From: Mariprofundus sp.
GTDB taxonomy: Bacteria > Pseudomonadota > Zetaproteobacteria > Mariprofundales > Mariprofundaceae
DNA: 38,622 nt
Direction of reading: 5' to 3'
Assembly (NCBI GenBank): GCA_021772775.1
Contig: JAJFLH010000016.1
Coordinates: 1 to 38,622, forward strand
Part shown: piece after piece, positions 19,936-36,489 of the stretch
Layout of the letters: each line of letters opens with the position of its first letter
How positions within the stretch are numbered: the stretch's first letter is position 1
Position numbers and translations under genes: made by a program
The notes under the pieces: generated by a model
The model's input: the letters and a program-made list of their open reading frames with translations, nothing else
Databases searched by the model: none
Told to the model about the DNA's origin: nothing

Positions 19936-20215
19936 GCGCACTAACCTACAGCCCGTAAACACTATTTCATCATCAATATTGATGATAAAACGCATGTTTT
20001 TTGGATATTTTCTTCAAATTGTATTTTCAATGCGGGTTGTTAGTGACAAATAACCCTGTTTAAATCTAATCGTTTGAAGATTTTGATCTACCTATGTACC
20101 TAAGAAACCAGCCGCTGATCACAATAATATGCACATAAAACAGCATAGATTTCACAGATTATTTGTTCATCGTATAGATAAAAACAGGAGTGAAAAAAAA
20201 GAACGAATTGGAGGC
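19936..20215. other. Intergenic region with an 18-bp perfect palindrome
   Basis: No gene is supported. ATCATCAATATTGATGAT at 19969-19986 is a perfect palindrome without spacer, the form expected of a dimeric repressor site. The tRNA promoter follows at its right edge. Confidence 0.45.
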
Positions 20216-20259: not shown

Positions 20260-20336
20260 GGCGCTTTAGCTCAGCTGGTTAGAGCACCGGAATCATAATC
20301 CGGGTGTCCGGGGTTCGAGTCCCTGAAGCGCCACCA
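20260..20336 (+). tRNA. tRNA-Met (anticodon CAU)
   Basis: A full 77-nt cloverleaf with encoded CCA: acceptor GGCGCTT/AAGCGCC, D-arm GCTC...GAGC, anticodon stem CCGGA/TCCGG with loop ATCATAA (anticodon CAT), T-arm CGGGG-TTCGAGT-CCCTG. The anticodon could also belong to lysidine-modified tRNA-Ile2, but the arm sequences fit elongator Met better. The intact integrase begins 165 bp downstream, so the 3' end of this gene is the likely attachment site. Confidence 0.93.
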
Positions 20337-20362
20337 TATAAGCATCCGAAGATGCACGTAGA

Positions 20363-20396
20363 AAGCCTGTAAGCCTAGCGTTTGCAGGCTTTTTTG
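20363..20396 (+). terminator. Terminator downstream of tRNA-Met
   Basis: AGCCTG (20364-20369) pairs with CAGGCT (20385-20390), followed by six T. A separate small hairpin GCATC-CGAA-GATGC lies at 20342-20355. Confidence 0.75.
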
Positions 20397-20490
20397 TTGC
20401 TATTCTGTGCGGTGTAGTCCTATAATGTCCACAGACATACCGTGTTAGGGACGGTATTAGTTACGGTATAAGAAATTAACGTAACGGTAT
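20397..20490 (+). promoter_or_regulatory. Integrase promoter with ACGGTAT repeats
   Basis: A candidate promoter is TTGCTA (20397-20402) and TATAAT (20421-20426), 18 bp apart. Downstream of it ACGGTAT occurs directly at 20451, 20463 and 20484 and inverted (ATACCGT) at 20437. The spacing suggests a regulator or integrase arm-type sites controlling int transcription. Confidence 0.5.
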
Positions 20491-20501
20491 AAGGGTGGTA
20501 T

Positions 20502-21833
20502 ATGGCACTATCTGACGTAGCTGTGAAGGCAGCTAAAATTCCCCCAGAGAAGAAGCAAATTAAACTTGCTGATAGCGGCGGGCTATATTTACTAGTTAAC
20601 AAGTCAGGTAAATATTGGCGCTATGATTACTCTTTTGCCGATAAGCGTAAGACACTTTCGATTGGCGCATTTCCAGCAGTTCCACTTGCAGGGCGTATTG
20701 ATAAAAAAAATCGTGATGAACATGGGCACCCTTTATATATTAAAGGCGCTAGAGATTTACGTGATGATGCAAAAAAACTAATCAAACAAGGTATTGATCC
20801 AAGTCAGAAGAAACAGAAAGAGCGTATTGCCCATGTCGCCTTATCTAATCTGAAGAATGCACAGGAAGCTGCTGATGCTAACACGCTAGAGTTTGTAGCT
20901 AGGCAATGGTTCAAAGTCCGCAAGCCTGAGTGGGAAGAATCTCACTCTAAGAGGCTTATTGGCAGGCTTGAGAGATATGTTTTCCCCACACTTGGGCAAA
21001 TTCCTGTAGCTAAGCTAACAAGGAGACAAGTAGCCGAAACTCTTACTAGCATTGCTGACCTTGGAGTACATGATACTGCAAAGCGTATAGCTCAGATGAT
21101 TCGAAATATTCTTGATTACGCTTGTGATAAGGGGCTGATTGAATCTGTACCAATGGGTAGTACAAAGTCACTTTTGCCAACGCCTAAGGTAACGCCTATG
21201 CCTGCAATTACCGAACCAAAGCGGATTGGCGAGTTCTTGAGGGCGATTGATGCATATCAAGGAACTTTTGTTGTTTGTTGTGCGCTGAAGCTATTACCTT
21301 ACTTAGCTGTGAGGTCTGGTGAGTTTCGAATGGCAGAATGGCCAGAGTTCAACCTTGATTCAGCCTTGTGGACGATTCCTGCTAATCACAGAAAGCTCCC
21401 CAAAACAGAGAAAGAAAATCCAGATAATGTGCATCTTGTACCGTTACCTAGTCAGGCTGTATCAATTTTTAGAGAACTTTTCGCGCTAACTGGCCATGGA
21501 AAGCATGTGTTTCCTTCGAGTCGAGGGGATGCCAGGCCAATGAGTGAGAATACTATTAATGCTGCTATTCATACAATGGGCTTTAAAGGCGAAATGGTAG
21601 GGCATGGAGTGCGCGCTATGTTCAGCAGTTCATTGAATGAGCAAGGCTTTAACCCTGATGCAGTTGAGAGGCAACTTGCTCATAAGGAAGGAGACTCAGT
21701 GCGTGGCGCATATAATCGTGCTGAATATTTGTCAGAGCGCACAACCATGATGCAGCACTGGGCCGATTATCTTGATGGATTGCGTGAAGGTGCAACTATT
21801 ATTCCAATTCATAGTAAGAAACAGCATGAATGA
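20502..21833 (+). CDS. int: Tyrosine-recombinase integrase (DUF4102/P4-type)
   Basis: The 443-aa protein integrates and excises the element at the adjacent tRNA-Met. The N-terminal DUF4102 arm-binding domain covers about 1-120 (L-A-D-S-G-G-L-Y-L-L-V and W-R-Y-D-Y-S-F-A-D-K-R-K-T-L-S-I-G). The core-binding helices follow, then the catalytic domain with R in L-A-V-R-S-G-E-F, H-G-V-R-A-M-F, L-A-H-K-E-G-D and the nucleophile in A-Y-N-R-A-E-Y. Length is slightly above the usual 400-420 aa. GGTGG is near the ATG. It reads away from the tRNA, the usual attL arrangement, and is related to the broken integrase at 14742. Confidence 0.93.
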   Translation: MALSDVAVKAAKIPPEKKQIKLADSGGLYLLVNKSGKYWRYDYSFADKRKTLSIGAFPAVPLAGRIDKKNRDEHGHPLYIKGARDLRDDAKKLIKQGIDPSQKKQKERIAHVALSNLKNAQEAADANTLEFVARQWFKVRKPEWEESHSKRLIGRLERYVFPTLGQIPVAKLTRRQVAETLTSIADLGVHDTAKRIAQMIRNILDYACDKGLIESVPMGSTKSLLPTPKVTPMPAITEPKRIGEFLRAIDAYQGTFVVCCALKLLPYLAVRSGEFRMAEWPEFNLDSALWTIPANHRKLPKTEKENPDNVHLVPLPSQAVSIFRELFALTGHGKHVFPSSRGDARPMSENTINAAIHTMGFKGEMVGHGVRAMFSSSLNEQGFNPDAVERQLAHKEGDSVRGAYNRAEYLSERTTMMQHWADYLDGLREGATIIPIHSKKQHE

Positions 21834-21868
21834 TGAACGACTGCCGACGCGGCAGATTATCTTGGGAT

Positions 21869-21904
21869 TTGACAAATGGGAAATCCGACCCTAATATTTC
21901 CCAT
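21869..21904 (+). promoter_or_regulatory. Strong sigma-70 promoter overlapped by a palindromic operator
   Basis: TTGACA (21869-21874) and TAATAT (21892-21897) are 17 bp apart, near-consensus. Inverted arms ATGGGAAAT (21876-21884) and ATTTCCCAT (21896-21904) cover the spacer, part of the -10 and the probable start region. A bound repressor would block RNA polymerase. It points into the terminator-rich leader of the regulator and replication genes. Confidence 0.7.
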
Positions 21905-21937
21905 ACTTTAGCTATCGATGTGAGTTAGCTACTAATA

Positions 21938-21961
21938 AGCTGCCTTTGAGCAGTTTTTTTT
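21938..21961 (+). terminator. Stacked terminator 1
   Basis: CTGC-CTTTGA-GCAG followed by eight T. The stem is short (4 bp), so efficiency is uncertain. Confidence 0.6.
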
Positions 21962-21975
21962 GTGCCAAAATTTTA

Positions 21976-22006
21976 GGCTCTTCCTTTAATAGGATGAGCT
22001 TTTTTT
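21976..22006 (+). terminator. Stacked terminator 2
   Basis: GCTC and TCCT pair with AGGA and GAGC around loop TTAAT with a T-T mismatch, followed by seven T. Confidence 0.75.
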
Positions 22007-22072
22007 GCCTGGAGGTCGTTTGATGTAATTATTATTTAAATACAATTTGCGTCCTTCAGTGGACACCTATCA

Positions 22073-22097
22073 AGCTGCCTTTTGGCGGCTTTTTTTA
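22073..22097 (+). terminator. Stacked terminator 3
   Basis: AGCTGCC-TTTT-GGCGGCT is a 7-bp stem with one T-G pair, followed by seven T. Confidence 0.8.
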
Positions 22098-22102
22098 TTT
22101 CT

Positions 22103-22127
22103 GGGCTGCCTTCGGGTGGCCCTTTTT
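22103..22127 (+). terminator. Stacked terminator 4
   Basis: GGGCTGCC-TTCG-GGTGGCCC is an 8-bp stem with a stable TTCG loop, followed by five T. It ends 19 bp before the AlpA-like gene, so read-through or antitermination is needed for any promoter upstream to reach it. Confidence 0.8.
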
Positions 22128-22146
22128 CGTTTTACGGAGTCGACAA

Positions 22147-22440
22147 ATGGTAGAGAAAATAACATCTAAGGCAGGTAAACGTCCCCCTGCAAATCAACAG
22201 TTAGGAGTAATACCAAAAGAGGGGTTTATGCGAATCAACCCTGTATTAAGTGTGCTTGGAGAGAATAGAACGTCTTTTTATCAAGGTATATTAGATGGCA
22301 CATATCCACCTCAAATTAAATTACCTGGTGGCAGATCATCCGTATGGAAAGCAAGTGAAATTAGAGAGGTGATAGAACTACTTGAGCAGGGCAAGACATG
22401 GCTTGATCGCAACGAAGCAGATAAGAAGGCGGTGGCCTAA
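22147..22440 (+). CDS. AlpA-like helix-turn-helix regulator/excisionase
   Basis: The 97-aa protein has an AlpA/MerR-like DNA-binding core at about 28-78: F-M-R-I-N-P-V-L-S-V-L-G, then N-R-T-S-F-Y-Q-G-I-L-D-G-T-Y-P, V-W-K-A-S-E-I-R-E-V-I. In phages and islands such proteins activate excision or act as excisionases with the integrase. GGAG precedes the ATG by 8 nt. It opens the rightward gene run and lies behind four terminators. Confidence 0.8.
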   Translation: MVEKITSKAGKRPPANQQLGVIPKEGFMRINPVLSVLGENRTSFYQGILDGTYPPQIKLPGGRSSVWKASEIREVIELLEQGKTWLDRNEADKKAVA

Positions 22441-22441
22441 T

Positions 22442-22597
22442 ATGCAGACTGTAAACAACAAAGCCCAAGGTGCTGTAACACCAAGGGCTTCAAATAAGTC
22501 CATCCAGCAAGGCAAACTCAGCTTGAAAGCTAGCAAGAACCGTTGTGTTTTAGAATCCCTAGACTTTGGTTGCAGATATCCAAAGGCATTCCGATGA
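22442..22597 (+). CDS. 51-aa small phage-type ORF, possibly part of a frameshifted HTH gene
   Basis: It begins directly after the AlpA-like stop (TAATATG) and encodes a basic protein M-Q-T-V-N-N-K-A-Q-G ... The segment K-N-R-C-V-L-E-S-L-D-F-G resembles the start of a common small phage winged-helix protein. The continuation expected for that family seems to lie in the two other frames (M-K-A-A-Q-A-K-Q-H in the next ORF and G-V-D-I-V-D-I-R-L-R before the DUF1376 gene), so this may be the 5' part of a gene broken by frameshifts. Confidence 0.4.
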   Translation: MQTVNNKAQGAVTPRASNKSIQQGKLSLKASKNRCVLESLDFGCRYPKAFR

Positions 22598-22749
22598 AAG
22601 CTGCCCAGGCTAAACAACACGCTACCACTTTAGATGTATGGATTTCACTTCAGCACCTTTTGAAGGCGGCAGGGGCGTCGACATTGTTGATATTCGATTG
22701 CGAGCGGCAATTCTGGAAGAACGCTCATGCGGTCAAGAGAGGTGTCTGA
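22594..22749 (+). CDS. 51-aa small ORF overlapping its neighbours
   Basis: It overlaps the preceding ORF by 4 nt (ATGA) and its stop shares one base with the DUF1376 start (TGATG), a layout typical of translationally coupled phage genes. The residues (M-K-A-A-Q-A-K-Q-H-A-T-T-L-D-V-W-I) match no family I can name. It may be a real small protein or the middle piece of a frameshifted winged-helix gene. Confidence 0.4.
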   Translation: MKAAQAKQHATTLDVWISLQHLLKAAGASTLLIFDCERQFWKNAHAVKRGV

Positions 22750-23513
22750 TGCATTTTTATCAACACCATATAGGTGATTACCGAAAAGACACTGGCCACC
22801 TCACCATGCTTGAACATGGGGCATACAGGCAACTGATCGACCTTTATTATCTGGATGAAAATCCACTGCCTGTTGAAGAGGTGAGGGTTATGCGTTTGGC
22901 ATGCGCTCGCTCTACGGACGAAAAGGAAGCAGTGAAAAACGTGTTATCAGATTTTTTTGAGAAGACATCAGATGGCTACAGGCATAAGCGATGTGACGCT
23001 GAGTTGGAAAGGATCTATGAAAAGTCAGAAAAGGCCAGGCAGTCAGCAAAAGCCAGATGGAAAAATAATGCGAATGAAGAGCTTCCGGAAAGCGATGGCA
23101 ATGCGAACGCAATGAAAAAAGATACGACTGCAATGCGAACGCATGGAAAACGCATGGAAAATCAATGCGACTTGGATGCTACCCATAACCCATTAACCCA
23201 TAACCCATCAAAAGAAGAACCTATTGCGCAAAATGCTGACGCATTTGCCGCGTTTTGGGCTGCATATCCAAAAAAGAAAAGCAAAGGCGCAGCGGAAAAG
23301 GCATGGAATCGAAAAGGATGTGGTCTCGGTTTATTTGATACAATCATGGATGGACTGAAGCGAGCAAAGGATAGTGATGACTGGATAAAGGATGGCGGGA
23401 AGTTCATTCCGTATCCGGCAACCTGGTTGAATGCCAAAGGCTGGGAGGATGAGTTAGGCGAACCAGAAACATCACATCAGGTGGACTACCTGGAAGGAGT
23501 GAGTAATGCGTAA
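22749..23513 (+). CDS. DUF1376 (YdaU-like) phage replication protein
   Basis: The 254-aa protein opens with the DUF1376 domain (M-H-F-Y-Q-H-H-I-G-D-Y-R-K-D-T, L-T-M-L-E-H-G-A-Y-R-Q-L-I-D-L-Y-Y, residues 1-90). A charged linker (N-A-M-K-K-D-T) and a C-terminal part F-W-A-A-Y-P-K-K-K-S-K-G-A-A and P-Y-P-A-T-W-L-N-A-K-G-W-E-D-E follow, as in phage O-like replication initiators. By position before a DnaB-type helicase it probably initiates or loads helicase for element replication. The frame is open from 22638, but the coupled ATG at 22749 gives the family N-terminus. Confidence 0.8.
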   Translation: MHFYQHHIGDYRKDTGHLTMLEHGAYRQLIDLYYLDENPLPVEEVRVMRLACARSTDEKEAVKNVLSDFFEKTSDGYRHKRCDAELERIYEKSEKARQSAKARWKNNANEELPESDGNANAMKKDTTAMRTHGKRMENQCDLDATHNPLTHNPSKEEPIAQNADAFAAFWAAYPKKKSKGAAEKAWNRKGCGLGLFDTIMDGLKRAKDSDDWIKDGGKFIPYPATWLNAKGWEDELGEPETSHQVDYLEGVSNA

Positions 23514-24759
23514 TCCTCTTCATGATGAAAAAGCCATTATTGGAGCTGCAATACTTTCGCCAACCAGCGAACACAACATGGTTGATCTTTCACCGGCTGA
23601 TTTTAGCGACGATTTTTTTGGTGCGGTATGGAAGCGCATGCGGGAAATGCGGGAGTTGGACATAAGCCTGCTTGAATCGGAGTTTTTTGAGAGGCGTGCG
23701 GATCTGACTGATGCTGCAAACAGTATGCCTACGATTACAAACCTGGAAAAGATTGCTAAAAGGATAAGAGAGGCAGCACACAGACGCAGGCTTTTGCAAT
23801 CACTGCGCACTGCTCATGGTTTGATTGAGTCTGGTGAAAGCATAGCGGACGTATCAGCGATAGTAGCAAAGACATTTGACGATGTGCATTCGGGTGATGG
23901 TTGGAAGTCGTTATTTGATTACCTTGTTCCTGCATATACCGACATTGAGCAAGCACAGCTAAGCGGGAAAAGCTGCATGTTTGCCCCAACAGGGTTTGTA
24001 GATTTCGATAAAGAGTTTGGCGGCATGCAGAAAGATGGATTGATTGTAGTCGCTGGACGACCTGCAATGGGTAAAAGCGCATTCGCAGCGGCGTTAGCGA
24101 GAAAGGCCGCAGAAGATAAGCCGGTGCTAATCAACAGCATGGAAATGTCAGGCTCACAAGTGGCAATGAGATATTACGCATCAGAGTCAGGCGTATCACT
24201 TTCAAAACTGACCGGCGGCGGCATGGTTGGAGATGATTACACTAAACTGGTTGCTGCTCAGGAAAAGCTTTCTGGAATAGGCATACATATCAATGAAAAG
24301 CGCAGTCGCAGTGTTGCGGAAGTATGCGCCGAAGCAAGACGCTTCCAACGCATTCACGGCGATGTGGGCATGATAGTTGTGGATTATCTCGGACTCATGG
24401 CACTGCCAGACGGCTTCACGAAAAACGATCAGGTCGCAGAGGCAACAAGAATGCTGGCCAACCTGGCTGGTGAGATCCATTGCCCGATAGTCCTCTTATG
24501 CCAGCTAAACCGTGATTGTGAAAAACGCGCAGATAAATCTCCAATGATGTCAGACCTTCGAGACAGCGGCGCAATAGAAGCCGATTCGCACCAGGTAATT
24601 TTTCCATTCAGACCAGAAGTTTACGACAAAGACAATAAGCTCAAAGGCTTGGCAATCATCAACATGGCAAAAAATAGGAACGGCGCAACGGGAAAGGTTC
24701 AGATGACTTGGATAGCAGATCAAACATCGTTCAAAGACATGGAAAGGGGGGATTTCTAA
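23506..24759 (+). CDS. Replicative DNA helicase, DnaB family
   Basis: The 417-aa protein has a short N-terminal DnaB domain (about 1-110) and a RecA-like helicase domain with Walker A G-R-P-A-M-G-K-S (184-191), the N-S-M-E-M-S block, Walker B M-I-V-V-D-Y-L-G-L-M (about 295) and a Q-L-N-R motif followed by the S-D-L-R-D-S-G-A-I-E arginine-finger region. It overlaps the DUF1376 gene by 8 nt, forming a two-gene replication module. It is somewhat shorter than host DnaB (about 470 aa), as is common in phages. Confidence 0.9.
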   Translation: MRNPLHDEKAIIGAAILSPTSEHNMVDLSPADFSDDFFGAVWKRMREMRELDISLLESEFFERRADLTDAANSMPTITNLEKIAKRIREAAHRRRLLQSLRTAHGLIESGESIADVSAIVAKTFDDVHSGDGWKSLFDYLVPAYTDIEQAQLSGKSCMFAPTGFVDFDKEFGGMQKDGLIVVAGRPAMGKSAFAAALARKAAEDKPVLINSMEMSGSQVAMRYYASESGVSLSKLTGGGMVGDDYTKLVAAQEKLSGIGIHINEKRSRSVAEVCAEARRFQRIHGDVGMIVVDYLGLMALPDGFTKNDQVAEATRMLANLAGEIHCPIVLLCQLNRDCEKRADKSPMMSDLRDSGAIEADSHQVIFPFRPEVYDKDNKLKGLAIINMAKNRNGATGKVQMTWIADQTSFKDMERGDF

Positions 24760-24938
24760 TGCCTCCGAATTCCCAAAAAGAACACAACCCCATACGCACA
24801 GCCACTTGCCGGAGATGTAAAAACGTATTCGGTGTCGATCACAAATTAGGCATATCAGAAGTAGTTGGTTGCCACCTTTGCAAAGCCCAAAAAATACAAG
24901 AGGAAAATAGCCATGAGCCAGTTAACAGCAGGATATGA
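24759..24938 (+). CDS. 59-aa putative zinc-ribbon protein
   Basis: The start overlaps the helicase stop by one base (TAATG), with GGGGGG about 5-9 nt upstream. Four cysteines form C-R-R-C and C-H-L-C pairs about 21 residues apart, the pattern of a small zinc ribbon. No further homology is evident. The gene overlaps the next by 26 nt. Confidence 0.6.
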   Translation: MPPNSQKEHNPIRTATCRRCKNVFGVDHKLGISEVVGCHLCKAQKIQEENSHEPVNSRI

Positions 24939-25737
24939 TAATCCAGTGATTCAGGGAATGTCTGCCAAAGTCCAGCAGCACATTAAAACAAGTGAGTTTG
25001 AGCCTCCTGTTGGAGTGGCTGAAGCTCTAAAACATTCTGTTAAATTTTCTCTTGGAGAGTCTGATGATTTACCCACAACTTGTGATATAGATGAAGATGG
25101 GAATCGCTCAATCCCGATCCACCTTCCTTTTGATCTGATGGCAATTGAGAGCATTTCAACCGAATATGAGGGAAAGTATTTTGATAGCATCTCTCTATAC
25201 AAAAAGATAAGTGCGTCCTGTTTACATGTGTTCTTTTTCGCACGCCAACATGGAATGAACGAGTGGGTGTTCCCTTTAGTTTGGGGAGCCATTGAGATGG
25301 TGAAGGGACAGCCTCACCAATTCAGAAAGCATGGCCCATGGCCTGTTGAAACGGATGAAGCAAAGGAGTGCTATAGAAAAAATGCTATTGATACATGCAA
25401 TATTGCTCTTACAGAACTCTCTTGCCTAAATACACTTATTGAATGCAATAATATTGGTGTTGAAACAGTGCCGGCTCCAAAACCTGAGCCAGGGCAAAAA
25501 CTCGGAAAGCGAAAGCGTGAGCTACTTCAATTCGAGTACCGTGTTCTGACTATCAAAGGGCGTAAAACATATGATGACAAGGGGGATGGGAGTCACCGTT
25601 CACCTCGATTGCATTTGAGAAGAGGGCATATCCGCAAGTTTCCATCCGGCAAGAAAACTTGGATTTCTTCGTGCGCAGTTGGAACAGGAAAAAGAGGTGT
25701 GATCCAAAAGGATTATTCTGTTGAGGTGCCATCATGA
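24913..25737 (+). CDS. Phage protein of unknown function (274 aa)
   Basis: I do not recognise the N-terminal two thirds, a soluble helical region with P-F-D-L-M-A-I-E-S and three cysteines. The C-terminus, R-S-P-R-L-H-L-R-R-G-H-I-R-K-F-P then K-K-T-W-I-S-S-C-A-V-G and V-I-Q-K-D-Y-S-V, is a motif seen in many uncharacterised phage early proteins. AGAGG precedes the ATG at 24913. It overlaps both neighbours (26 nt and 4 nt), so it is part of the early operon. Confidence 0.7.
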   Translation: MSQLTAGYDNPVIQGMSAKVQQHIKTSEFEPPVGVAEALKHSVKFSLGESDDLPTTCDIDEDGNRSIPIHLPFDLMAIESISTEYEGKYFDSISLYKKISASCLHVFFFARQHGMNEWVFPLVWGAIEMVKGQPHQFRKHGPWPVETDEAKECYRKNAIDTCNIALTELSCLNTLIECNNIGVETVPAPKPEPGQKLGKRKRELLQFEYRVLTIKGRKTYDDKGDGSHRSPRLHLRRGHIRKFPSGKKTWISSCAVGTGKRGVIQKDYSVEVPS

Positions 25738-26159
25738 TTATCAATGGAGAGCACTGGCAAACATTTGGATCAGTAGATGAAGCTTTGGACAGTTCAATAA
25801 ATGCAGATGGACATAAAGATATTCTTCAACTGGTAACAGAGACATTGAGTGAAACTGAAGCGCTTCTGTTGCTGGCCCAAAAGGCTGAAAATTACGAACA
25901 GCAGAATCACGCCTGTATGGCACTTGCATCAAAGCTATCTGCAACACTTGGCTACGATGAATCATTACTCTTCGATGTGGTAAGGGAGCTATCTGCGTTG
26001 TCACTACGGCATCGATATGCTCAACATCAAAAGCGCTTATCTGTAAGCCGTAAGCAAATAAGCTTATGGAGGAAGACCACACAAGCCTGGGCCGCTGCGG
26101 CGGAGCAACACGCTGCTGATCAATTGGAAGTTGCCCTTACAGACGCTGGTTTCATTTAA
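25734..26159 (+). CDS. Hypothetical protein, last gene of early operon (141 aa)
   Basis: The ATGA overlap with the previous gene indicates coupling. The protein is mainly helical (T-E-T-L-S-E-T-E-A-L-L-L-L-A-Q-K-A-E-N-Y; L-R-H-R-Y-A-Q-H-Q-K-R-L) and may form a coiled coil. No family is recognised. A terminator follows about 70 nt downstream. Confidence 0.65.
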   Translation: MIINGEHWQTFGSVDEALDSSINADGHKDILQLVTETLSETEALLLLAQKAENYEQQNHACMALASKLSATLGYDESLLFDVVRELSALSLRHRYAQHQKRLSVSRKQISLWRKTTQAWAAAAEQHAADQLEVALTDAGFI

Positions 26160-26227
26160 ACTGTTGCGGTAGCGGATGTACGAACGTACACTTACATTGT
26201 CGACATATAGTCGATCCGATTTATTCG

Positions 26228-26262
26228 AAGACCGTTTTCCGCAAGGGGAGCGGTCTTTTTTT
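26228..26262 (+). terminator. Terminator closing the early operon
   Basis: AGACCG pairs with CGGTCT, extended by wobble pairs up to a GCAA tetraloop, followed by seven T. It separates the early genes from the late-type pair. A short inverted repeat TGTACG-AA-CGTACA lies upstream at about 26176-26189. Confidence 0.85.
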
Positions 26263-26285
26263 GTTTTAATTTTGGAGGTAGTGAA

Positions 26286-27581: not shown

Positions 27582-27584
27582 GAT

Positions 27585-30500
27585 ATGAGTGAATCTGCTG
27601 CTTTTACATACGAAGATGCACAAGCTCCCTCTAATGGTGTTGGTTTCTCATACGAAGAAGCTAATGCAAGCCCTCAAGAAGGGCTCAGTCATGAAGAGGC
27701 GCAAGGAACTTCAGACGCAGGCTTCTCATACGAAGAGGCTTTAAATGAGCCACCTTCCTTTATGGATCAGATGGGCGGAGGGATCGACTCGGTACAATCA
27801 TCATTCCAAAAGACAGGCGCACTAATTGCCGATAAAGCAGGTGCTGATGAAATTGCACAGGGCTTGCGAAATGACGCAACTGCAAATGATGAAGAGGCTG
27901 CAAAGGTTCAATACCAGTCCAAACATGGTGATAGCGGTTGGAAGCAGGCACTCAATCTATCAGATCCAGAATGGTGGAAGGCAACTATTGCAGAAGCTAT
28001 TCCCGGCTCAGCTCCATTCCTTGCTGGTGCGGTGGCTGGGGCTGCTGCTACACCATTGCCACACCCTGTTGCTAAGTTGATTGGTGCCGGTCTTGGTGGT
28101 GGTGCCGCAGTTGTGCTGCAAGAAGTAGGCCCTGCTTATGAAGAGCATCTGCAGGCGCACCCTGACGATACAGAGGGTGCGACCGATTACGCAATCAAGA
28201 AAGCAGGGTTAACAGGCGTGATCAATGCGGCATCGATTGGCTTAGGGCCATTGGGTTATGGTGCCGGTGCGATTAAGCACGCTCTTATTCAGATGGCGGT
28301 ACAACCAGCGGTTGGTGTTGCAGATACAGTTGCAGGCAATGCAATGGAACAGGCGAACATTGATCCAAACACGCCGCTATCAAGAGGTGTAGCTAAAGCA
28401 GCCGTTGGTGAAATCGCAGTAGATGCGCCAGGCACAGTTGCAATTGTTCGTAATGTGATGAAATCCGGACAGGACACGCAGATCGCTACTGATGTAGATG
28501 CAGAGGATGCCGCAGCTGTGGCTGCAGATGGCCATCAGGTGGAGATAGCCCAAGATGATGGCGTGGTAAGTGTTGAAGGTGATCCAGTCACGGCGGAAAT
28601 ACGGCCTGAAAGTGGCGAGAATATGGCTGTAACAGATCAAGCAGCACCGAAAGTACCGGAACCGGCATCTACCATTGAAGCGCAGATTGATGCCTTTAAT
28701 GATGGTCGTAAGCCTGCCGTATTAATCACACCGGGCGAGGATACTCCCCAGATACCTGAAGGCGCTAAATCCTTCGACCTTGGAGATTCAGGAACACTAA
28801 TATTCAAAGATAATGCCACGTTGGCCAAAGCTCTTAACCCTGAGACATTAGGCGAAGCGCTGGGGTTTGGAACAGGAGCGAAACCGGAGAGTCCTACAAA
28901 TGCTATTGTATCAAAAGATGCACAAGGTCGAATCGTTGCAGAGCAGCTGACAGATGAAAAAGACCTTGATCTCCATGCCTCTGTTATCGGCGCAGGAAGG
29001 ATACTTGCTGGGGAAGGTGGGAGTATTGAACTGCAATCTATTGGACAGGTATTGCAGCAGAGACAGGAAGCCGTCACGCCATCTTTATCAGCAGAAGAAG
29101 ACACTGGCATAACAGAGGGAGTAAAAGCCACAGGAGAGGCATCTGTTGCAGCCTCACCGGCAGATTTACAGCAAATAACTGCTGATATGCAAGGTGATGG
29201 AATGAAGTTCCGCAAAGGTGAAGCCGAGTTGTTCCATGCCGGTGATGTTGCCACTGTTGAAGCAGTCAGGAGCAGGGTGAGTCTAAAGTTGCAAGAGCGT
29301 AAGGCGCAACAGGAGGGATTCGCCGCCCTCGATGAAGGTAAACCATTCTCATTTAATCCCAATGCAAGTGACGAGCTTCCGGTTAATCCTTCAGAAGGCC
29401 AGGCCGGTGCGGCTGCAATTGCGAAGCTTGATGAACAAACAAAGCAACCTGACATAAGCCAAAAGGTTATATCGAAAAGCACCTCTGAATCTGACATAGC
29501 AGAAGAGCAGCCAGTGCAGAATGCCGATGTTTCAACAGCGAAGCGCATGAATGTGAATACAAGCAAGGATGAGTTGCAAACGCAGGCGACTACAGCAGGT
29601 ATGCAAAGCCCCTTGCAGCAGGGGGAAGATGAGGCTGTTTCGCCAAAGGCTGTTGTCACTCAAGCGTTAAAGCTTGAACGAAACGAGAAAGGCTCGCTTA
29701 TCGCATCAGGTGAAGGTGTGCGTGATGTGCTGAAGCAAGCGGGTGTGAAGTTTGTTCCGCGTAAGGGAGGAACTGCCCTTGTTGCAAAATCAAACGAAGA
29801 GGCTGCGCACAAGGCGATTGATACGAGATCATCTAAAGCAGCTGTAAAACAGCCTGTTAACTCGTCAGTTGGTAGTCAGGGAGTACAAAGCACGCCTGAA
29901 ACCGGTATGAAAGACCATGTTTCCCAGTCGGAGAAGAAGGTTGAATCAAAATCCGATCAAGAACCCCCCAATACACCAAGTAGCAAGATTGATGATACTA
30001 CCACCAGGCTGGAGAAAGTTGGGCAGAAGGACAATCCTGTTTCACCTAAGAGTCGATCAGGACTATCAAAGAAAGAACGTACAAACTTATTCAAGGATGG
30101 GACTGAAGTTCCAAGAAGTAAGTTGCTGAGTGAATACTATTCCCCTGGTCGAATTGTAAAAAGCTACGGTGGACATGATCGCGTAATTTCTCTTGATGAG
30201 AAAGATGGTGGAGAGTGGTCTGTTAAGGTTATTGAGGTCACAAAGGATGATAATGGTGAATGGATAGATGCAGGCGATGTGCGAGAGCATTCCACATTTC
30301 CTGAGCGAAAGAGTATGGCAGCCGCATTCAAATCAGATGATGAATCTGCTTCACCAGAAAAACAATCGGGTGAGAATATCGAAGATTTCGGTGAGAAGCT
30401 TGGTGGCGCAAAGAAGGATACTTACAATCTATACCGTGATCAGATGGCCAAGGCTGGTGAGTATGATGTGAATGATGTGCCTCTATCAAAATCATGGCCA

Positions 30501-33500
30501 GAGCCTGATTACAAGAAGCTTCTGGAAGGCGGTATTGATAAAAAGACTGTAGCATTCATCAGAGCAGCAAGGGATGAAATACCCAACAAGCCAAGGGATA
30601 AATACAAGCTCGCTCGCTGGACTCCACAGGTTAAATTGCTTCGATCCTTGGCAGACGATTTGTTGCAAGGGCATATTTCTGTTGATCGTCTATTTACTGA
30701 GCTTTCATTGGAAAAGTACAATCGATTGCGCGAAGGGATTAGCGGCAGAATTGAATTGTATGAGAAGATAGGCCATGAGCGAAGCATGAAAGGTATCGCT
30801 GTAACTGTTGGGCGATACAGTATGTATGATGGCGTTAAGCATGACCCTGCAAAGACTATCTGGTCAGTGAGTCAGAAGAAGAAAGCAACGGCCTTTGGAA
30901 ATATGCCGAGAATGCTTGGTAAAGGTGACACAAGAGAGAAAGCTGTTGAAAGCTTCGTAAAGAATCTTGATAAGATTGACTCACTGCCAGCAAGTGAGAA
31001 GCGAAAGAAAAGCGGGTTTGATGTTTATCATTATCAAGATAAGCCTGATATGTATTGGATCGGAAAGAAGATTGGCAAGAATCGGGCTGATTTGAAATCA
31101 TTTGATTCACTTGATAGCGCTAAGGCATACCTGAACGACAACCAGAGCTCGGTAGAAGAACTGCTTGCGCGATACAAAATACTCCCCGGTCATCGCCGAG
31201 AAACAAACCGCGAGAGATCAGGGGTTGATTATCGCAACGGTGAAGATGTAACGCCAGAGATGTTCAGTGATGCGTTTGGTTTTCGCGGTGTAGAATTTGG
31301 TAATTGGGTTAAAGCTACAGGCGAGAGGCAGGGCCACCTCAACCGGGCATACGATGCGCTAATGGACTTAGCTAACCTGATTAATATTCCACCACTCGCA
31401 ATCTCTCTAAATGGAGAGCTTGGACTGGCATTCGGCGCGAGAGGTAGCGGTGGCGCGGATCCAGCAGCAGCTCACTACGAGCCTGATTTCGTAGCAATAA
31501 ATCTGACAAGAAAGAATGGTGCTGGTTCATTGGCCCACGAGTGGTTTCATGCGATGGATAACTACTTCTCTCGCAGTCGCAGAGATCCATCGGGAATGAT
31601 GACAGACAAACCATATCATCGCGGTGCCGGCGTTCGTCGCGAAGTATCTGGAGCATTCAAAGACATCGTGGATGCGTTGAAAAAAACAGGCATGGAGAAG
31701 CGGGCAGCAGAGCTAGATAAACGCAGATCTAAGCCGTACTGGGCTACGTCATGGGAGCAGTCAGCGCGAGCATTTGAAAGCTACGCGATTGATAAGCTTG
31801 CTCAGTCTGAATCTGTTAATGATTACCTAGCAAATGTCCAAGGTCATACAGAGTTCACGCGAAACATGCTTGAATCACTACTGGAGGGGAAGACGGCTGA
31901 AGAGTCATATCCATACCTACTAGACAGTGAAATGGATGGTGTGCGAACAGTATATGATAAATTCTTTGAGACTCTGAAAACTAAAGAAACAGACAAGGGT
32001 GTTGCTCTGTTCTCACGCACCAAAGGTGATAAGTCAGCCGTTGGGAGGTCGTCTGAAGAACTCAGTGCGATCATGGATAAAGTCATTGTCCGCGTCGGTA
32101 ATCGTTGGCCGGTGCATACACTCCATACGTTTGGCGATCTTCCTGTCTCGATACAGAAACAGGCCGATACAGAGGGCCACGATGGCAATGATGTAGATGG
32201 TGTATTCCATAAGGGTAATGTTTATCTGATTCGGGATAACTTAGCAAGACACAGTGATCCTGAATTGAAAGTTGAGGAAGCTCTTTTACATGAGTTCGCA
32301 CATGGTGATATCCGCGCTATGTTCGGCGAAGAAATGGCTGCAAAGCTGAATGTCTTATTTGCTGCCTCTGGTGGTTACAAGGGCATAAAGGCTATTGCTG
32401 ATAAACATGGTATCGATCTTCGTCCGTACTCCAAAAGCGGGGCTCTGGCTGGTATGGCTAGCAATAAGCGACAGAACCTAATCATGGATGAAATTCTTGC
32501 TCACCTTGCACAGGAAAAGCCAAACACAGCCAAACGGATAAAAGAGATCGTCGGCATGATTCGCCAATGGCTTCGAGACCATGGCTTTGCAAAGCTGGCC
32601 AAGTACGGTGAAACGGATCTGCTAAACGTATTAAGGGAGGCAAGAAAGGTTACTGCTAAAAATGTGAGCGGCAGAGCTACGTTTATGGTGTCCAAGCATG
32701 AACCAAACGGTATGAGTGGCTTCGATGGCTTTGTGGATGACCACAATAAGGCCATTAAATCCCTTCCATGGGACAGTATTGTGGGCTTTGCAAAGGATAA
32801 GCGTCGTATCTTGATGGGAGCGCTTACCAACCTGCAATTGGGTGAAGTGTATGCACCTGCATTAAAAGGGATGGAGGGAGGCAACCCACTCACCAATTAC
32901 AATACATCGCTGCAGAACCTCGAAGCAGAGCGTAACGGCGCATTACATGAAGCTGAACTTATTGACCAGTCATGGGATAGTCTAAACGGTAAAGAGGCAG
33001 ATGCTGTTGGTACACTGATGAATGATGCGACCGTGTATGCTATTCACCCTGACAAAGCCTTTGAATCACAGATGCCTGAACTGCAGAAGAAGTTGCAACA
33101 AGTACGAAGCGAGGAAGAAGGTACAGAGGTTAAGCGTGAGATACAGAATGAGAAGCATCGTAAACTTGCATATCCGAACCTCTCCAAGCGCTACCAGGCA
33201 CTGAGTAACGACGCCAAGGGTGTCTATGCAAACGTGCGTGATCTGTACACCCAGCAATGGAACAAAACACAGGCGGAGATGATTAACCGGGTTGCTCGTA
33301 ACATTCCTGATGAAAGCATACGTAAGCAGTCCATTACAGAAATCAGATTAGCATTCAGAAAGGCGATCCAGATAGGTCCCTACTTCCCACTTGCTCGATT
33401 TGGCGACTTTGTAACGATTGCTCGTAAAGATGGTGATTATATTCGTGATCATCATGCAACCAGTGCCAAACAGAAAAAGGCCGCTGTGAAATATCGTAAA

Positions 33501-35486
33501 GCAGGCTTCACAGTCAGTAGAGTGAAGGGTGAAGAGTTTGGAGCTGGTGATTTGGGTAATGCTCCAGCATTCGCACAGGATGTGTTTGAACTGCTGAATA
33601 AATATGGGTTGAAAGAATCTGATCTTGCGGACGATGTGAATCAGCTAATGTTACGCATGATGCCGGATATGTCGGCGCTGAAGCACAACATCCACAGGAA
33701 GCGGGTTAAGGGTTATTCAGGAGATGCCAGGCGAGCATTTGCGCACACGGTTTTTCATGGCGCACACCATTTGTCACGAATCATGTTTGCCGATCGCATG
33801 CAGAATGAAATCACCCGTATCAAGGATGAAATAGGATTGCTGCAGAGTGGCAAGGAAAGCGTCCTTGAAGATGGCAACCTTGCAGTTGATCTACTCAATG
33901 AAATGAAGGTTAGGCATGAGAAAATCATGAACCCGAATAGTCACCCTTTAACCTCACACCTCGGAAGCCTTGGGTTCATCTGGTATCTGGGTGCAAGCCC
34001 TGCTGCCGGTATCGTTAACATGACACAAACACCACTTGTAACGCTGCCAATGTTGGCTGGTAAGTATGGATGGAGTAAATCATCAGCGGCATTGATGAGA
34101 GCCATGAAGGACTATGCGAGAGCACCATTTAAGGCAGGTTCGTATGAAGCCTGGGTGTCACTCGACCGAAGCAACCGCATTGCAAAATCAGAACGCGCAT
34201 TGATTGAAGAGTTGATCAAAGATGGAACGCTAGACATCACACAAGCTCACGCACTCGCACAGTTGTCAGAGACCGATACACGGCACAATGCAAAGGGAGA
34301 GATGAGCCAAGGAAGAACCAAGGCCATGCGATATATTGGCGCGTTCTTTCACAACGCTGAGGTAGTCAATCGCCAGGTGTCTGCATTGGCCGCATATCGA
34401 TTGGCCAAAGGTACAGGGGTAAATCATGAAGAGGCAGTTAACCAGGCGCGGAAAGTCGTGTTTGATAGTCATTTCAATTATGCATCCAGTAACCGGCCAA
34501 GATACTTGAAAGGTGATGTTGTACGGACATTGACTATGTTCAAACAGTACAGCCAGCACATGACGTATGCCCTGCTTCGCAACTTCAACCAGAGCTTCAA
34601 AGGTGAGACACCAGAAGTACGTAAACAGGCTCGTAACACTCTATCCGGAATACTTGTACAGCATGCCCTTGCAGCAGGAACACTCGGACTACCATTAGCA
34701 GGGGTGATATTCAGCACACTCGACTTGGCCTTTGATGATGAAGATGAACCTTTTGATTCAAAGGTAGCATATCGCAACTGGCTGGCTGATACATTCGGAA
34801 CAAAGGTTGGTGAAGCAATCGCAAAAGGCCCTGTGAACGCTTACACGCCGATTGATTTACATTCGCGCGTATCACTTGATGAACTATGGCTACGGACGCC
34901 AGACAGGGACCTGACAGGCAAGCAGGAGGCTCTTTACTACATGCAACAAGCAGCGGGGCCAATCGGTGCGCTGTTCCTCAATGTGTGGAGTGGTGCCGGG
35001 TCCATTGCTGAAGGTCATGTGGAGAGAGGCTTTGAAAAGATGGTTCCTAAGTTTGTCAGGGACTTTGCACGATCTGCCAGATATCACGAGGAAGGACTCC
35101 GGACATACAATGGTGATCCAATCATAGAAGAGACAACGCCAGCAGAAGAAGCATTTCAAGCTATTGGGTTCTCTCCATCAAGGGCTGGTGAACGCTATGA
35201 GGCACGGTCAGCAGTGAAGAAGCAGCAAATGGGTATCAATGACAGGCGTAAGCAGCTGCTGAACTGGTACGCGGAAGGAATCAGAGATAACGACAACCAA
35301 AAGCTTAATGATGTAATCGATAAAATCAGCCTGTTCAATGGAAAGAATCCATCACGGGTAATCGATGCCAAGACACTTAAACGCTCACTGAAAACAAGAG
35401 CTTCCAGATCAGGGCAAACAGACCATGGCATCTATTTACCGAAGGGCTCAAAACACCTGATGGAAGAAGCGAGGTTTGCAGAGTGA
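27585..35486 (+). CDS. Giant polyvalent phage protein with two HExxH motifs and PLxRFG motif (2,633 aa)
   Basis: One uninterrupted 7.9-kb frame. Four repeats of F-S-Y-E-E-A type occur at residues 7, 21, 34 and 47. Gly/Ala-rich hydrophobic stretches (about 145-185 and 205-240) follow, then a long low-complexity region to about 900. A domain of the large-polyvalent-protein type (D-Y-R-N-G-E-D-V-T-P then F-G-F-R-G-V-E-F-G-N-W-V, about 1212-1290) leads into a zincin motif H-E-W-F-H at 1318. A second zincin, H-E-F-A-H, is at 1569. The C-terminal part has P-L-A-R-F-G at 1935, the signature of PLxRFG phage proteins, then hydrophobic helices. Such proteins are thought to be packaged and delivered with phage DNA. 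GGAG overlaps the preceding stop. Confidence 0.82.
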   Translation: MSESAAFTYEDAQAPSNGVGFSYEEANASPQEGLSHEEAQGTSDAGFSYEEALNEPPSFMDQMGGGIDSVQSSFQKTGALIADKAGADEIAQGLRNDATANDEEAAKVQYQSKHGDSGWKQALNLSDPEWWKATIAEAIPGSAPFLAGAVAGAAATPLPHPVAKLIGAGLGGGAAVVLQEVGPAYEEHLQAHPDDTEGATDYAIKKAGLTGVINAASIGLGPLGYGAGAIKHALIQMAVQPAVGVADTVAGNAMEQANIDPNTPLSRGVAKAAVGEIAVDAPGTVAIVRNVMKSGQDTQIATDVDAEDAAAVAADGHQVEIAQDDGVVSVEGDPVTAEIRPESGENMAVTDQAAPKVPEPASTIEAQIDAFNDGRKPAVLITPGEDTPQIPEGAKSFDLGDSGTLIFKDNATLAKALNPETLGEALGFGTGAKPESPTNAIVSKDAQGRIVAEQLTDEKDLDLHASVIGAGRILAGEGGSIELQSIGQVLQQRQEAVTPSLSAEEDTGITEGVKATGEASVAASPADLQQITADMQGDGMKFRKGEAELFHAGDVATVEAVRSRVSLKLQERKAQQEGFAALDEGKPFSFNPNASDELPVNPSEGQAGAAAIAKLDEQTKQPDISQKVISKSTSESDIAEEQPVQNADVSTAKRMNVNTSKDELQTQATTAGMQSPLQQGEDEAVSPKAVVTQALKLERNEKGSLIASGEGVRDVLKQAGVKFVPRKGGTALVAKSNEEAAHKAIDTRSSKAAVKQPVNSSVGSQGVQSTPETGMKDHVSQSEKKVESKSDQEPPNTPSSKIDDTTTRLEKVGQKDNPVSPKSRSGLSKKERTNLFKDGTEVPRSKLLSEYYSPGRIVKSYGGHDRVISLDEKDGGEWSVKVIEVTKDDNGEWIDAGDVREHSTFPERKSMAAAFKSDDESASPEKQSGENIEDFGEKLGGAKKDTYNLYRDQMAKAGEYDVNDVPLSKSWPEPDYKKLLEGGIDKKTVAFIRAARDEIPNKPRDKYKLARWTPQVKLLRSLADDLLQGHISVDRLFTELSLEKYNRLREGISGRIELYEKIGHERSMKGIAVTVGRYSMYDGVKHDPAKTIWSVSQKKKATAFGNMPRMLGKGDTREKAVESFVKNLDKIDSLPASEKRKKSGFDVYHYQDKPDMYWIGKKIGKNRADLKSFDSLDSAKAYLNDNQSSVEELLARYKILPGHRRETNRERSGVDYRNGEDVTPEMFSDAFGFRGVEFGNWVKATGERQGHLNRAYDALMDLANLINIPPLAISLNGELGLAFGARGSGGADPAAAHYEPDFVAINLTRKNGAGSLAHEWFHAMDNYFSRSRRDPSGMMTDKPYHRGAGVRREVSGAFKDIVDALKKTGMEKRAAELDKRRSKPYWATSWEQSARAFESYAIDKLAQSESVNDYLANVQGHTEFTRNMLESLLEGKTAEESYPYLLDSEMDGVRTVYDKFFETLKTKETDKGVALFSRTKGDKSAVGRSSEELSAIMDKVIVRVGNRWPVHTLHTFGDLPVSIQKQADTEGHDGNDVDGVFHKGNVYLIRDNLARHSDPELKVEEALLHEFAHGDIRAMFGEEMAAKLNVLFAASGGYKGIKAIADKHGIDLRPYSKSGALAGMASNKRQNLIMDEILAHLAQEKPNTAKRIKEIVGMIRQWLRDHGFAKLAKYGETDLLNVLREARKVTAKNVSGRATFMVSKHEPNGMSGFDGFVDDHNKAIKSLPWDSIVGFAKDKRRILMGALTNLQLGEVYAPALKGMEGGNPLTNYNTSLQNLEAERNGALHEAELIDQSWDSLNGKEADAVGTLMNDATVYAIHPDKAFESQMPELQKKLQQVRSEEEGTEVKREIQNEKHRKLAYPNLSKRYQALSNDAKGVYANVRDLYTQQWNKTQAEMINRVARNIPDESIRKQSITEIRLAFRKAIQIGPYFPLARFGDFVTIARKDGDYIRDHHATSAKQKKAAVKYRKAGFTVSRVKGEEFGAGDLGNAPAFAQDVFELLNKYGLKESDLADDVNQLMLRMMPDMSALKHNIHRKRVKGYSGDARRAFAHTVFHGAHHLSRIMFADRMQNEITRIKDEIGLLQSGKESVLEDGNLAVDLLNEMKVRHEKIMNPNSHPLTSHLGSLGFIWYLGASPAAGIVNMTQTPLVTLPMLAGKYGWSKSSAALMRAMKDYARAPFKAGSYEAWVSLDRSNRIAKSERALIEELIKDGTLDITQAHALAQLSETDTRHNAKGEMSQGRTKAMRYIGAFFHNAEVVNRQVSALAAYRLAKGTGVNHEEAVNQARKVVFDSHFNYASSNRPRYLKGDVVRTLTMFKQYSQHMTYALLRNFNQSFKGETPEVRKQARNTLSGILVQHALAAGTLGLPLAGVIFSTLDLAFDDEDEPFDSKVAYRNWLADTFGTKVGEAIAKGPVNAYTPIDLHSRVSLDELWLRTPDRDLTGKQEALYYMQQAAGPIGALFLNVWSGAGSIAEGHVERGFEKMVPKFVRDFARSARYHEEGLRTYNGDPIIEETTPAEEAFQAIGFSPSRAGERYEARSAVKKQQMGINDRRKQLLNWYAEGIRDNDNQKLNDVIDKISLFNGKNPSRVIDAKTLKRSLKTRASRSGQTDHGIYLPKGSKHLMEEARFAE

Positions 35487-35776
35487 AAAAGCGACCATGG
35501 CATAAGGCAGCGGTGAATACTGAACCTGTTGGAGGTGCTGATGAAACTACCCCTGAAAGCAAAAATGATGCTGGGTTTTGCGAGACCATAAAAAAGAACG
35601 ATAAAAAACGGAAAGCATGCGGTGCAAAAACAAGAAAGGGGTCGCCTTGTAAGAACACGCGACTATATCCAAACGGTAGATGTAAAAACCATGGTGGTCT
35701 AAGTACGGGACCAAAAACAGAAGCAGGCAAGGCAAGGGCAAAGCAGAACCTTGTAAGCTGGAAAGGAAACGATTGA
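35483..35776 (+). CDS. HGGxSTG-type zinc-finger protein, copy 1 (97 aa)
   Basis: A GTG start overlaps the stop of the giant gene by 4 nt (GTGA), so translation is coupled. The C-terminal half has C-x9-C-x10-C-x2-H followed by H-G-G-L-S-T-G-P-K-T (about 47-85), a small zinc-binding module found in phage proteins often named HGGxSTG. The N-terminal half is charged and probably disordered. The basic module (K-T-R-K-G-S-P-C-K) suggests nucleic acid binding. Confidence 0.72.
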   Translation: MKKRPWHKAAVNTEPVGGADETTPESKNDAGFCETIKKNDKKRKACGAKTRKGSPCKNTRLYPNGRCKNHGGLSTGPKTEAGKARAKQNLVSWKGND

Positions 35777-35792
35777 TACTTTCCGCAGCCAT

Positions 35793-35934
35793 CGCATGCG
35801 CATGTGTATGCGTCATGAGGTTCAAGCGTATGTTGATCAGGCCGGACAGGTACGCACAGGCGTGCGTGTGCGTCATGGGGTTCATATGTGTTTCTGGTGC
35901 CATCCTCGCATATGCGCGCCCGTAATGGGGTTCA
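35793..35934. repeat. Three structured repeats: palindrome plus CGTCATGGGGTTCA
   Basis: Each unit has a short palindrome followed by a conserved 14-mer. Unit 1 is CGCAT...ATGCG (35793-35812) and CGTCATGAGGTTCA (35811-35824). Unit 2 is CGCACA...TGTGCG (35853-35872) and CGTCATGGGGTTCA (35871-35884). Unit 3 is CGCATATGCG (35907-35916) and CGTAATGGGGTTCA (35921-35934). The palindromes differ in sequence but keep pairing, which suggests structure is maintained. They lie between two HGGxSTG genes. Confidence 0.7.
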
Positions 35935-35973
35935 GTATCCTGTGCTTTATGAGTCCATAAAAAGAGGCGAGAT

Positions 35974-36030
35974 ATGGAAATAGTGACACGAAAATATTAC
36001 GAAAAGACGAAGGCTGAAAGCAATGGTTAG
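35974..36030 (+). CDS. 18-codon leader ORF overlapping HGGxSTG copy 2
   Basis: AGAGG stands 6 nt before an ATG opening M-E-I-V-T-R-K-Y-Y-E-K-T. It stops at 36030, 8 nt inside the next gene. That gene has only a weak ribosome binding site of its own, so this short ORF may couple its translation. Confidence 0.4.
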   Translation: MEIVTRKYYEKTKAESNG

Positions 36031-36385
36031 CAGTCCTGAATTACGGAAGCTGTGGCGAAAGCATGGTGATGATCATGCCAGGCGATGGGTAGAGTATGAG
36101 CGTCAGGCAGACGCATGGAATGAAGCTGCTGAGAAATTGCAGGCAGCCGGTGATTGGAGAGCTCCATTGCCACCATTTCCGGAACACCCTCATTGTGAGC
36201 CTTACCCAGCGGAGCTTCACGATATTACGTGCGGTGCAAAAACCAGAGCAGGCACGCCATGCAAACGTACTGACCTCTATCGAAGTGGACGATGTAAGTT
36301 CCATGGAGGGTTAAGCACCGGGCCACAGTCTTCAATAGGGAAGAAGAAGGTAGCCCTGAATGGCTTTAGGAAGAAAAAAACCTGA
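36023..36385 (+). CDS. HGGxSTG-type zinc-finger protein, copy 2 (120 aa)
   Basis: The C-terminal module C-x9-C-x10-C-x2-H, then H-G-G-L-S-T-G-P-Q-S, is nearly identical to that of the gene at 35483 (C-G-A-K-T-R-x-G-x-P-C in both). The N-terminal part differs: a helix rich in Arg and Trp (R-K-L-W-R-K-H-G-D-D-H-A-R-R-W-V) and a Pro-rich linker (P-L-P-P-F-P-E-H-P). Two paralogues with different N-termini suggest shared recognition with distinct partners. It is the last gene of the rightward phage-like run. Confidence 0.72.
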   Translation: MVSSPELRKLWRKHGDDHARRWVEYERQADAWNEAAEKLQAAGDWRAPLPPFPEHPHCEPYPAELHDITCGAKTRAGTPCKRTDLYRSGRCKFHGGLSTGPQSSIGKKKVALNGFRKKKT

Positions 36386-36386
36386 G

Positions 36387-36446
36387 TTGGCCGTTATACA
36401 CCGATTACGACAGACGACTCACGGCCAAACCCGGACGGTCAATGTT
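36387..36446. repeat. Repeat copy A, with 8-bp stem
   Basis: TTGGCCGT and ACGGCCAA pair around a 26-nt loop (36388-36428). The plus-strand text GCCGTTATACACCGATTACG is closely related to copy B at 37320. It lies between the convergent HGGxSTG and GST genes and may act as a bidirectional terminator. Confidence 0.5.
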
Positions 36447-36489
36447 TTCAACTAACGCCGGTTAATTGCTTTTGTTATGTTTTTTTATC

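Follow-up and report, generated by a model that had tools for sequence, protein, structure and literature searches.

An AlpA-type element at a Mariprofundus tRNA-Met gene, best read as a phage satellite that carries its own ejection-type proteins

Known satellites redirect the regulation, the packaging or the capsid size of a helper phage. An integrase, an AlpA gene and a replication gene form the core of the phage-inducible chromosomal islands (PICIs) and of the phage-inducible chromosomal minimalist islands (PICMIs), and AlpA acts as the activator in the cycles of both (PMC6092414, PMC10803314). Among giant internal virion or ejection proteins, the P1 Dar proteins and the N4 vRNAP are the ones that have been studied (PMC5512222). 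Here we describe an element in which genes of both kinds stand side by side. The stretch analysed (the window) is an entire contig, C8, of 38,622 bp, from a 3.12-Mb Mariprofundus (Zetaproteobacteria) genome designated G000. Starting from a tRNA-Met gene, the element consists of int, alpA, small genes, a DUF1376 gene, dnaB, a zinc-ribbon gene, two genes termed p274 and p141, a terminator, a gene for a coiled-coil protein (the coil), a gene for a 2,633-aa polyvalent protein (the giant) and two HGGxSTG genes, and all of its reading frames are open (Table 1). ARAGORN and family searches confirmed the tRNA-Met, integrase, AlpA, DUF1376, DnaB, giant and HGGxSTG genes, which a preliminary description had given from the bare sequence. 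We read it, as the best account, as a phage satellite of the AlpA type whose own ejection and anti-defence proteins are added to the capsid of a helper.

The element agrees with satellites in general in having integration and replication genes of its own (int, AlpA, DUF1376 and DnaB) and, from int to position 36385, no capsid or packaging-motor genes. It resembles the Gram-negative PICIs (PMC6092414) in its integrase, AlpA and replication module, which stand in the same order, and in the absence of capsid, portal, large terminase and lysis genes; PICIs measure about 12–15 kb, and the element about 16.1 kb as counted from tRNA-Met to the last HGGxSTG gene. It differs from them in a replication module of DUF1376/DnaT and DnaB rather than Pri-Rep, and in devoting more than half of its length to the coil/giant module, whose two predicted internal virion proteins place it outside the strict PICI definition. 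The attachment (att) tRNA of the element is also shared with other integrase-bearing islands; PICI att sites are described as never used by prophages. The PICMIs, the minimalist satellites of Vibrionaceae (PMC10803314), are alike in int, AlpA, a replication gene and the lack of capsid genes; however, they lie beside fis and not at tRNA-Met or tRNA-Glu, they use a DUF3987/DUF5906 primase where the element has DnaB and DUF1376, and the element is nearly three times larger and includes virion-type proteins. P4-like satellites (PMC8628076) share the integrase and AlpA, but no Pfam match to Psu, delta, epsilon or alpha was found among the element proteins scanned; Sid needs a custom profile, and no separate Sid search was made. 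The coil/giant pair itself is that of podovirus-like prophages and phage-plasmids with LPD/DarB giants, represented here by a prophage on contig C29 of the same genome and by Endozoicomonas NZ_CP103299.1. In C29, int and an AlpA-like gene stand at the other end, as in the element, whereas its terminase, portal, capsid and tail module is absent from the element. By its LPD5, LPD1 and LPD39 domains, DarB-like region and HExxH motifs, the giant is a member of the polyvalent proteins (PMC5512222), alongside P1 DarB and DdrB. No described satellite with an ejection or internal virion module was found in the literature searched, preprints and many journals lying outside the search, and satellite, phage and polyvalent protein were mentioned together there only in the context of BREX.

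The main frames from int to 36385 gave no family match to capsid, portal, terminase or tail proteins, as previously described; the sole exception was weak (E 0.004), the HGGxSTG motif resembling one that lies within a TerS PHROG family. The gap between p141 and the coil gene (26159–26286), where one terminator had been noted, holds that terminator only. The preliminary description had proposed listing the genes between dnaB homologues and the giant gene in other genomes, and this comparison revealed that the capsid-less order recurs in M. micogutta (G020, contig C5, NZ_BDFD01000005.1; locus L045). The M. micogutta copy lies at tRNA-Glu and reads, with protein identities to the window, int (43%), alpA (26%), a small gene (40%), a DnaT-like primosomal gene, dnaB (31%), zinc ribbon (47%), a RuvC-like gene, p274 (58%), p141 (38%), a HigB-type toxin–antitoxin pair, the terminator, coil (47%) and giant (about 50%); no structural module is present up to the contig end, which falls inside the giant gene. 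The proteins are thus mostly 26–58% identical, while the terminator and its counterpart at L045:8794–8825 are identical over about 40 bp between proteins of about 47% identity. A partial copy in genome G019 (locus L055) runs from int to p141 at the same tRNA-Glu as in M. micogutta, to which its int and dnaB products are 91% and 89% identical; 3′ of p141 are the start of an IS3-like transposase and then the contig end. Two copies with the ejection module and one partial copy are therefore at hand, and the element is found in 2–3 of 23 genomes. Homologues of the giant in G017 and G070 were not counted as copies: they have other gene neighbours, with relatives of the C29 internal virion and tail-fibre proteins upstream in G070.

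In a comparison of 748 codons of the giant, dN was 0.09 and dS about 2 (saturated), giving a dN/dS of about 0.05, and the int and dnaB genes of G019, set against those of G020, gave a ratio of about 0.05 as well. Saturation at synonymous sites together with so low a ratio indicates that the capsid-less arrangement is old and under purifying selection. Decay is ruled out by the same ratio.

The coil/giant pair connects the element with a phage in its own genome. The giant matches phrog_10089 (DarB-like) and, at its C-terminal DarB/PLxRFG region, NF032893 (PLxRFG, E 7.5e-203); HExxH motifs occur at residues 1318 and 1569, and a PDB search with the protein gave no match. Its identity to the M. 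micogutta giant is about 50% over most of the length and 85% over residues 1704–2453, and the coils of the two elements are 46–47% identical. Contig C29 holds a complete podovirus-like prophage of about 47 kb, from a giant gene (182079–190736) to an integrase gene (about 227570–228958), with genes for TerS, TerL, portal, major capsid, adaptor, tail fibre and an internal virion protein. The last two genes of the prophage encode a coiled-coil protein of 413 aa and a giant of 2,885 aa, each homologous to its counterpart in the window (E 1e-19 for the coils and 2e-30 for the giants); the coils, in equivalent positions, are 34% identical over 170 aa. The integrase at the end opposite the giant is 33% identical to that of the element. 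In the Endozoicomonas phage-plasmid, a coil/giant-type pair likewise ends the structural module, and the earlier statement that the giant follows the structural genes in podovirus-like prophages holds for both examples. The place of the pair in these phages, together with the common build of such proteins described below, supports by analogy a predicted internal virion or ejection role for coil and giant.

Near their 5′ ends, the coil genes of the element and of C29 have 38 bp in common without a mismatch. In 60 kb of C29, this is the sole exact match to the element of at least 18 bp, 50 codon shuffles reach at most 18 bp, and it spans about 13 codons without a synonymous change; outside it, the two coil proteins are about 30% identical. 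The two giant genes share a 157-bp stretch of 79% identity. The 38-bp match would be explained by local recombination, or by selection on the DNA or the peptide in this segment. In our reading, the segment serves docking and its match to the helper is maintained, with a shared packaging signal as the alternative; the M. micogutta coil gene is without this sequence, and no C29-type portal or TerL was found in that species, which fits both views alike. We also compared the starts of several giants (window 27585–27750, L045 10006, C29:190736, L031, L033, L034, L038 and L101). Giants across many phages often start with two to four tandem aromatic/acidic motifs, which vary among phages (FSYEEA, NPFDQFD, PWAVVDESP and LDFTLEDA) and are possibly capsid or portal docking signals, and in several full phages the upstream partner of the giant has a short glycine-rich start followed by a coiled coil.

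Because M. micogutta shows the same capsid-less order at another tRNA, with mostly 26–58% identity, the element fits a satellite and a recent deletion is excluded. We consider it probable, though well short of certain, that the element is a phage satellite using a helper capsid, the helper being a podovirus-like temperate phage such as the C29 prophage. This is one of the two origins offered in the preliminary description, a satellite that borrows a capsid and supplies its own delivery protein, and the M. micogutta copy supports it. The C29 prophage, complete and with the coil/giant pair after its structural module, is a plausible helper. The element has about one third of its size (about 16 kb versus about 47 kb), close to the ratio typical of satellites (PMC10803314).

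A fuller picture, to which we give slightly less than even weight, is that of a satellite lineage parasitising ejection, with the head and tail of the helper, a coil and giant of its own, a docking segment kept matched by recombination, and anti-defence proteins delivered together with satellite DNA. Excision, replication, packaging, docking, the anti-restriction function and the identity of the helper are steps that we infer as follows. While integrated at tRNA-Met, the element would have its transcription restrained by a tandem-terminator leader. Once a helper is active, AlpA and the early operon would be expressed, the integrase would excise the element, and DUF1376 and DnaB would replicate it. 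HGGxSTG proteins and/or shared sequence may then steer the DNA to the helper terminase, which is the weakest step. Coil and giant, made as the element's own ejection set, would be incorporated into helper procapsids and docked at the portal through N-terminal segments resembling those of the helper (in the coil gene, the 38-bp identity). When a new host is infected, the giant would enter it with the DNA and may aid delivery, counter restriction, or both.

Several points weigh against the satellite reading. Excision, packaging and transfer are predictions from sequence; a second tRNA-Met 3′ end (attR) was not found in the window; and both complete copies stop at or near contig breaks, leaving genes past the giant unseen. 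No coil or giant was found in the G019 assembly, from which they were lost or in which they were not assembled. Whole-genome searches for structural genes covered two families and one protein, one of the searches being insensitive; none of the other genomes searched, that of M. micogutta among them, had relatives of the C29 portal and TerL, and M. micogutta therefore has no known resident helper. Searches of viral contigs and phage records did not return the element-specific proteins, and the 38-bp motif, p274 and the coil gave no match in IMG/VR. Finally, polyvalent giants also occur on conjugative plasmids.

Among other explanations, it seems unlikely to us that the element is what is left of a prophage lineage whose structural module disappeared long ago, now immobile and retained by the host because it has been domesticated, for instance with a role of the giant in phage defence. 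Descent from such a phage is possible given that int, AlpA, coil and giant are common to C29 and the element and that the int and giant genes of C29 lie at its two ends, and Iyer et al. proposed that hosts capture polyvalent proteins (PMC5512222). However, int and dnaB, needless for a host function, are under purifying selection between G019 and G020. The element also occurs in few of the genomes, and its copies must have moved and recombined, because they sit at different tRNAs and have mosaic identities, from 31% for dnaB to 85% for the C-terminus of the giant. More doubtful still is conjugative delivery, in which the giant would travel with the DNA through the type IV secretion system (T4SS) of a helper, as polyvalent proteins encoded on conjugative plasmids do. 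Relatives of the giant with an LPD5 domain do occur on conjugative plasmids with a T4SS and relaxase, for example Moraxella pMBO-2, but the family search detected neither a relaxase nor a T4SS gene among those of the element, and the coil, without a plasmid match, is homologous to the last-but-one gene of the complete C29 prophage.

We regard as similarly improbable a complete phage of permuted gene order whose structural genes lie past the right contig end. Neither right flank is visible, the window contig stopping in an insertion sequence (IS) copy and the M. micogutta contig in the giant gene, and a Pfam Terminase_6N search of four genomes, which gave no match, is insensitive, as it also missed the known, divergent TerL of C29. 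Against this, the giant comes after the structural module in the phages examined (C29 and the Endozoicomonas phage-plasmid), no second C29-type portal or C29-related TerL was found in G000 and none at all in M. micogutta, and the giant is followed in the window by the HGGxSTG genes and a gene for GST rather than by structural genes. A recent clean deletion in this strain, the other origin offered earlier, or an assembly collapse has in its favour the intact frames and a complete prophage with related ends in the same genome, but it deserves almost no credence and is refuted by the M. micogutta copy, an independent assembly with the same junction, about 47% protein identity, the identical terminator and no structural module in the corresponding interval.

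Upstream of the replication genes, the interval between int and alpA can be aligned in all three elements, the leader lying at 21869–22122 in the window, at L045 3232–3489 and at about L055 4450–4800 (minus strand). The candidate promoter aligns with TTGACA-17-TATATT at L045:3232. Hairpins follow at about 21937, 21975, 22072 and 22103, three detected by scan and the fourth visible in the fold (fold z-score −5.7); M. micogutta has four at matching positions, and in both leaders scanned the four terminator-like hairpins fall within about 190–250 nt. This leader could hold the replication operon silent pending an antiterminator or another helper signal. The space separating hairpins 2 and 3 holds a ribosome-binding site with a minimal open reading frame (ORF) behind it, ATGTAA in the window and ATGAATTAA in both relatives.

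The integrase is 43–46% identical to that of M. micogutta (L045:1974–3194), and AlpA homologues occupy the matching position in M. micogutta and G019. Of the two small ORFs that had been considered doubtful, the first, for which no homologue was found, remains so, whereas the second is 40% identical (E 4e-13) to a small ORF in the matching position in M. micogutta. The position of the DUF1376 protein is taken in M. micogutta by a DnaT-like protein that appears unrelated to it; the DnaB proteins are 31–32% identical, and the 47% identity of the zinc-ribbon protein to L045:6085–6270 applies to the zinc-ribbon part. Protein p141 is 38% identical to L045:7554–7979 and 54% to L055:924–487, with no family match. 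Protein p274 is 54% identical to its G019 counterpart, and its AlphaFold model (pLDDT 34) was unusable. Its C-terminal 100 or so residues are shared by uncharacterised proteins of plasmids and phages; homologues in other Pseudomonadota (G069, G209, G248 and G298) have this domain only, with no coil or giant, and it is also found on Pseudomonas, Xanthomonas and Burkholderia plasmids. The recurrence of the domain on plasmids and in other mobile-element contexts argues for a putative regulatory role of p274 rather than a hidden capsid protein. The domain (window 25500–25737; SHRSPRLHLRRGHIRK...TW) is widespread among mobile elements and unannotated. A literature search returned no paper on HGGxSTG.

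Table 1. Features of the element, by position in the window
Feature	Position	Strand	Basis
tRNA-Met gene, integration site, left end of element	20260..20336	+	ARAGORN
Tyrosine integrase	20502..21833	+	Pfam PF13356, PF22022, PF00589
Candidate early promoter, TTGACA-17/18-TAATAT/AATATT	21869..21898	+	Consensus scan; putative
Leader, four tandem terminator-like hairpins, promoter-to-alpA interval	21937..22122	+	Scan and fold
AlpA-type regulator/excisionase	22147..22440	+	PF05930, E 1.2e-7
Small ORF, 51 aa, doubtful	22442..22597	+	Translation; ATGA overlap with next ORF
Small gene, 51 aa	22594..22749	+	TGATG coupling to next gene
DUF1376/primosomal replication protein	22638..23513 (likely start 22749)	+	PF07120, E 4e-30; phrog_9327 primosomal protein
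DnaB-like replicative helicase	23506..24759	+	PF03796, E 7e-74
Small zinc-ribbon protein (CxxC...CxxC)	24760..24939	+	Homologues in M. micogutta, G019
p274, 274 aa, candidate DNA-binding regulator	24913..25737	+	Conserved in 3/3 elements
p141, 141 aa	25734..26159	+	Conserved in 3/3 elements
Terminator directly 5′ of ejection genes	26227..26258	+	Conserved as DNA
Coiled-coil protein (431 aa), predicted internal virion/ejection protein	26286..27581	+	Homology
38-bp exact match to 5′ end of C29 coil gene	26313..26350	+	Exact-match search
Polyvalent (DarB/PLxRFG) giant, 2,633 aa, predicted packaged and injected	27585..35486	+	LPD5, LPD1, LPD39
HGGxSTG protein 1	35483..35776	+	NF041373, E 1e-16
HGGxSTG protein 2	36023..36385	+	NF041373, E 4e-15

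The integration site is in wider use. In other Mariprofundus, tRNA-Met is occupied by unrelated islands, two of which have a 24-bp duplication of the tRNA 3′ end; these islands of 6–7 kb (L074 in G012 and L078 in G019) have perfect att duplications and a gene of about 410 aa pointing towards tRNA-Met. Another island at the same tRNA-Met (L110, G015:C4:61900–79704) has an integrase 56% identical to that of the element, a DUF3987 helicase/Prim-Pol, an HGGxSTG gene and no structural gene visible. A further island (L112, G022:C399) likewise has an integrase, a DUF3987/Prim-Pol replication protein, an HGGxSTG gene and no visible structural gene. These last two are possibly further Mariprofundus satellites.

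On the right, no shared stretch of at least 11 bp that could mark an att site was found in that part of the window, and no downstream gene was common to the flanks of 12 relatives. Repeated GCCGTTATAC-type inverted repeats at 36390–36460, 37310–37380 and 38400–38430 surround the GST gene and an unknown gene; they recall the attC sites of integrons or the borders of cassettes, and the right end of the element may lie there. The contig breaks within an IS copy at both ends: positions 1–140 and 38483–38622 are copies of one IS end with an IS30-type-transposase-like start, which is present at many contig edges of G000. Upstream of the tRNA, a truncated integrase gene (14957–15604, 215 aa) with Fic and IS200-like genes nearby marks the remains of another island, and a short dispersed repeat at 19931–20004 recurs at no fewer than a dozen sites in G000 and also in G009. 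In an Rfam scan, the tRNA was the sole match.

If the satellite reading is true, a satellite with its own internal ejection proteins would represent a new point of hijacking, and it would explain the occurrence of DarB-like proteins in capsid-less elements. The docking of giant ejection proteins would become testable, with satellite and candidate helper in one genome and a shared segment of only about 13 residues. The element would, moreover, define a satellite family in Zetaproteobacteria.

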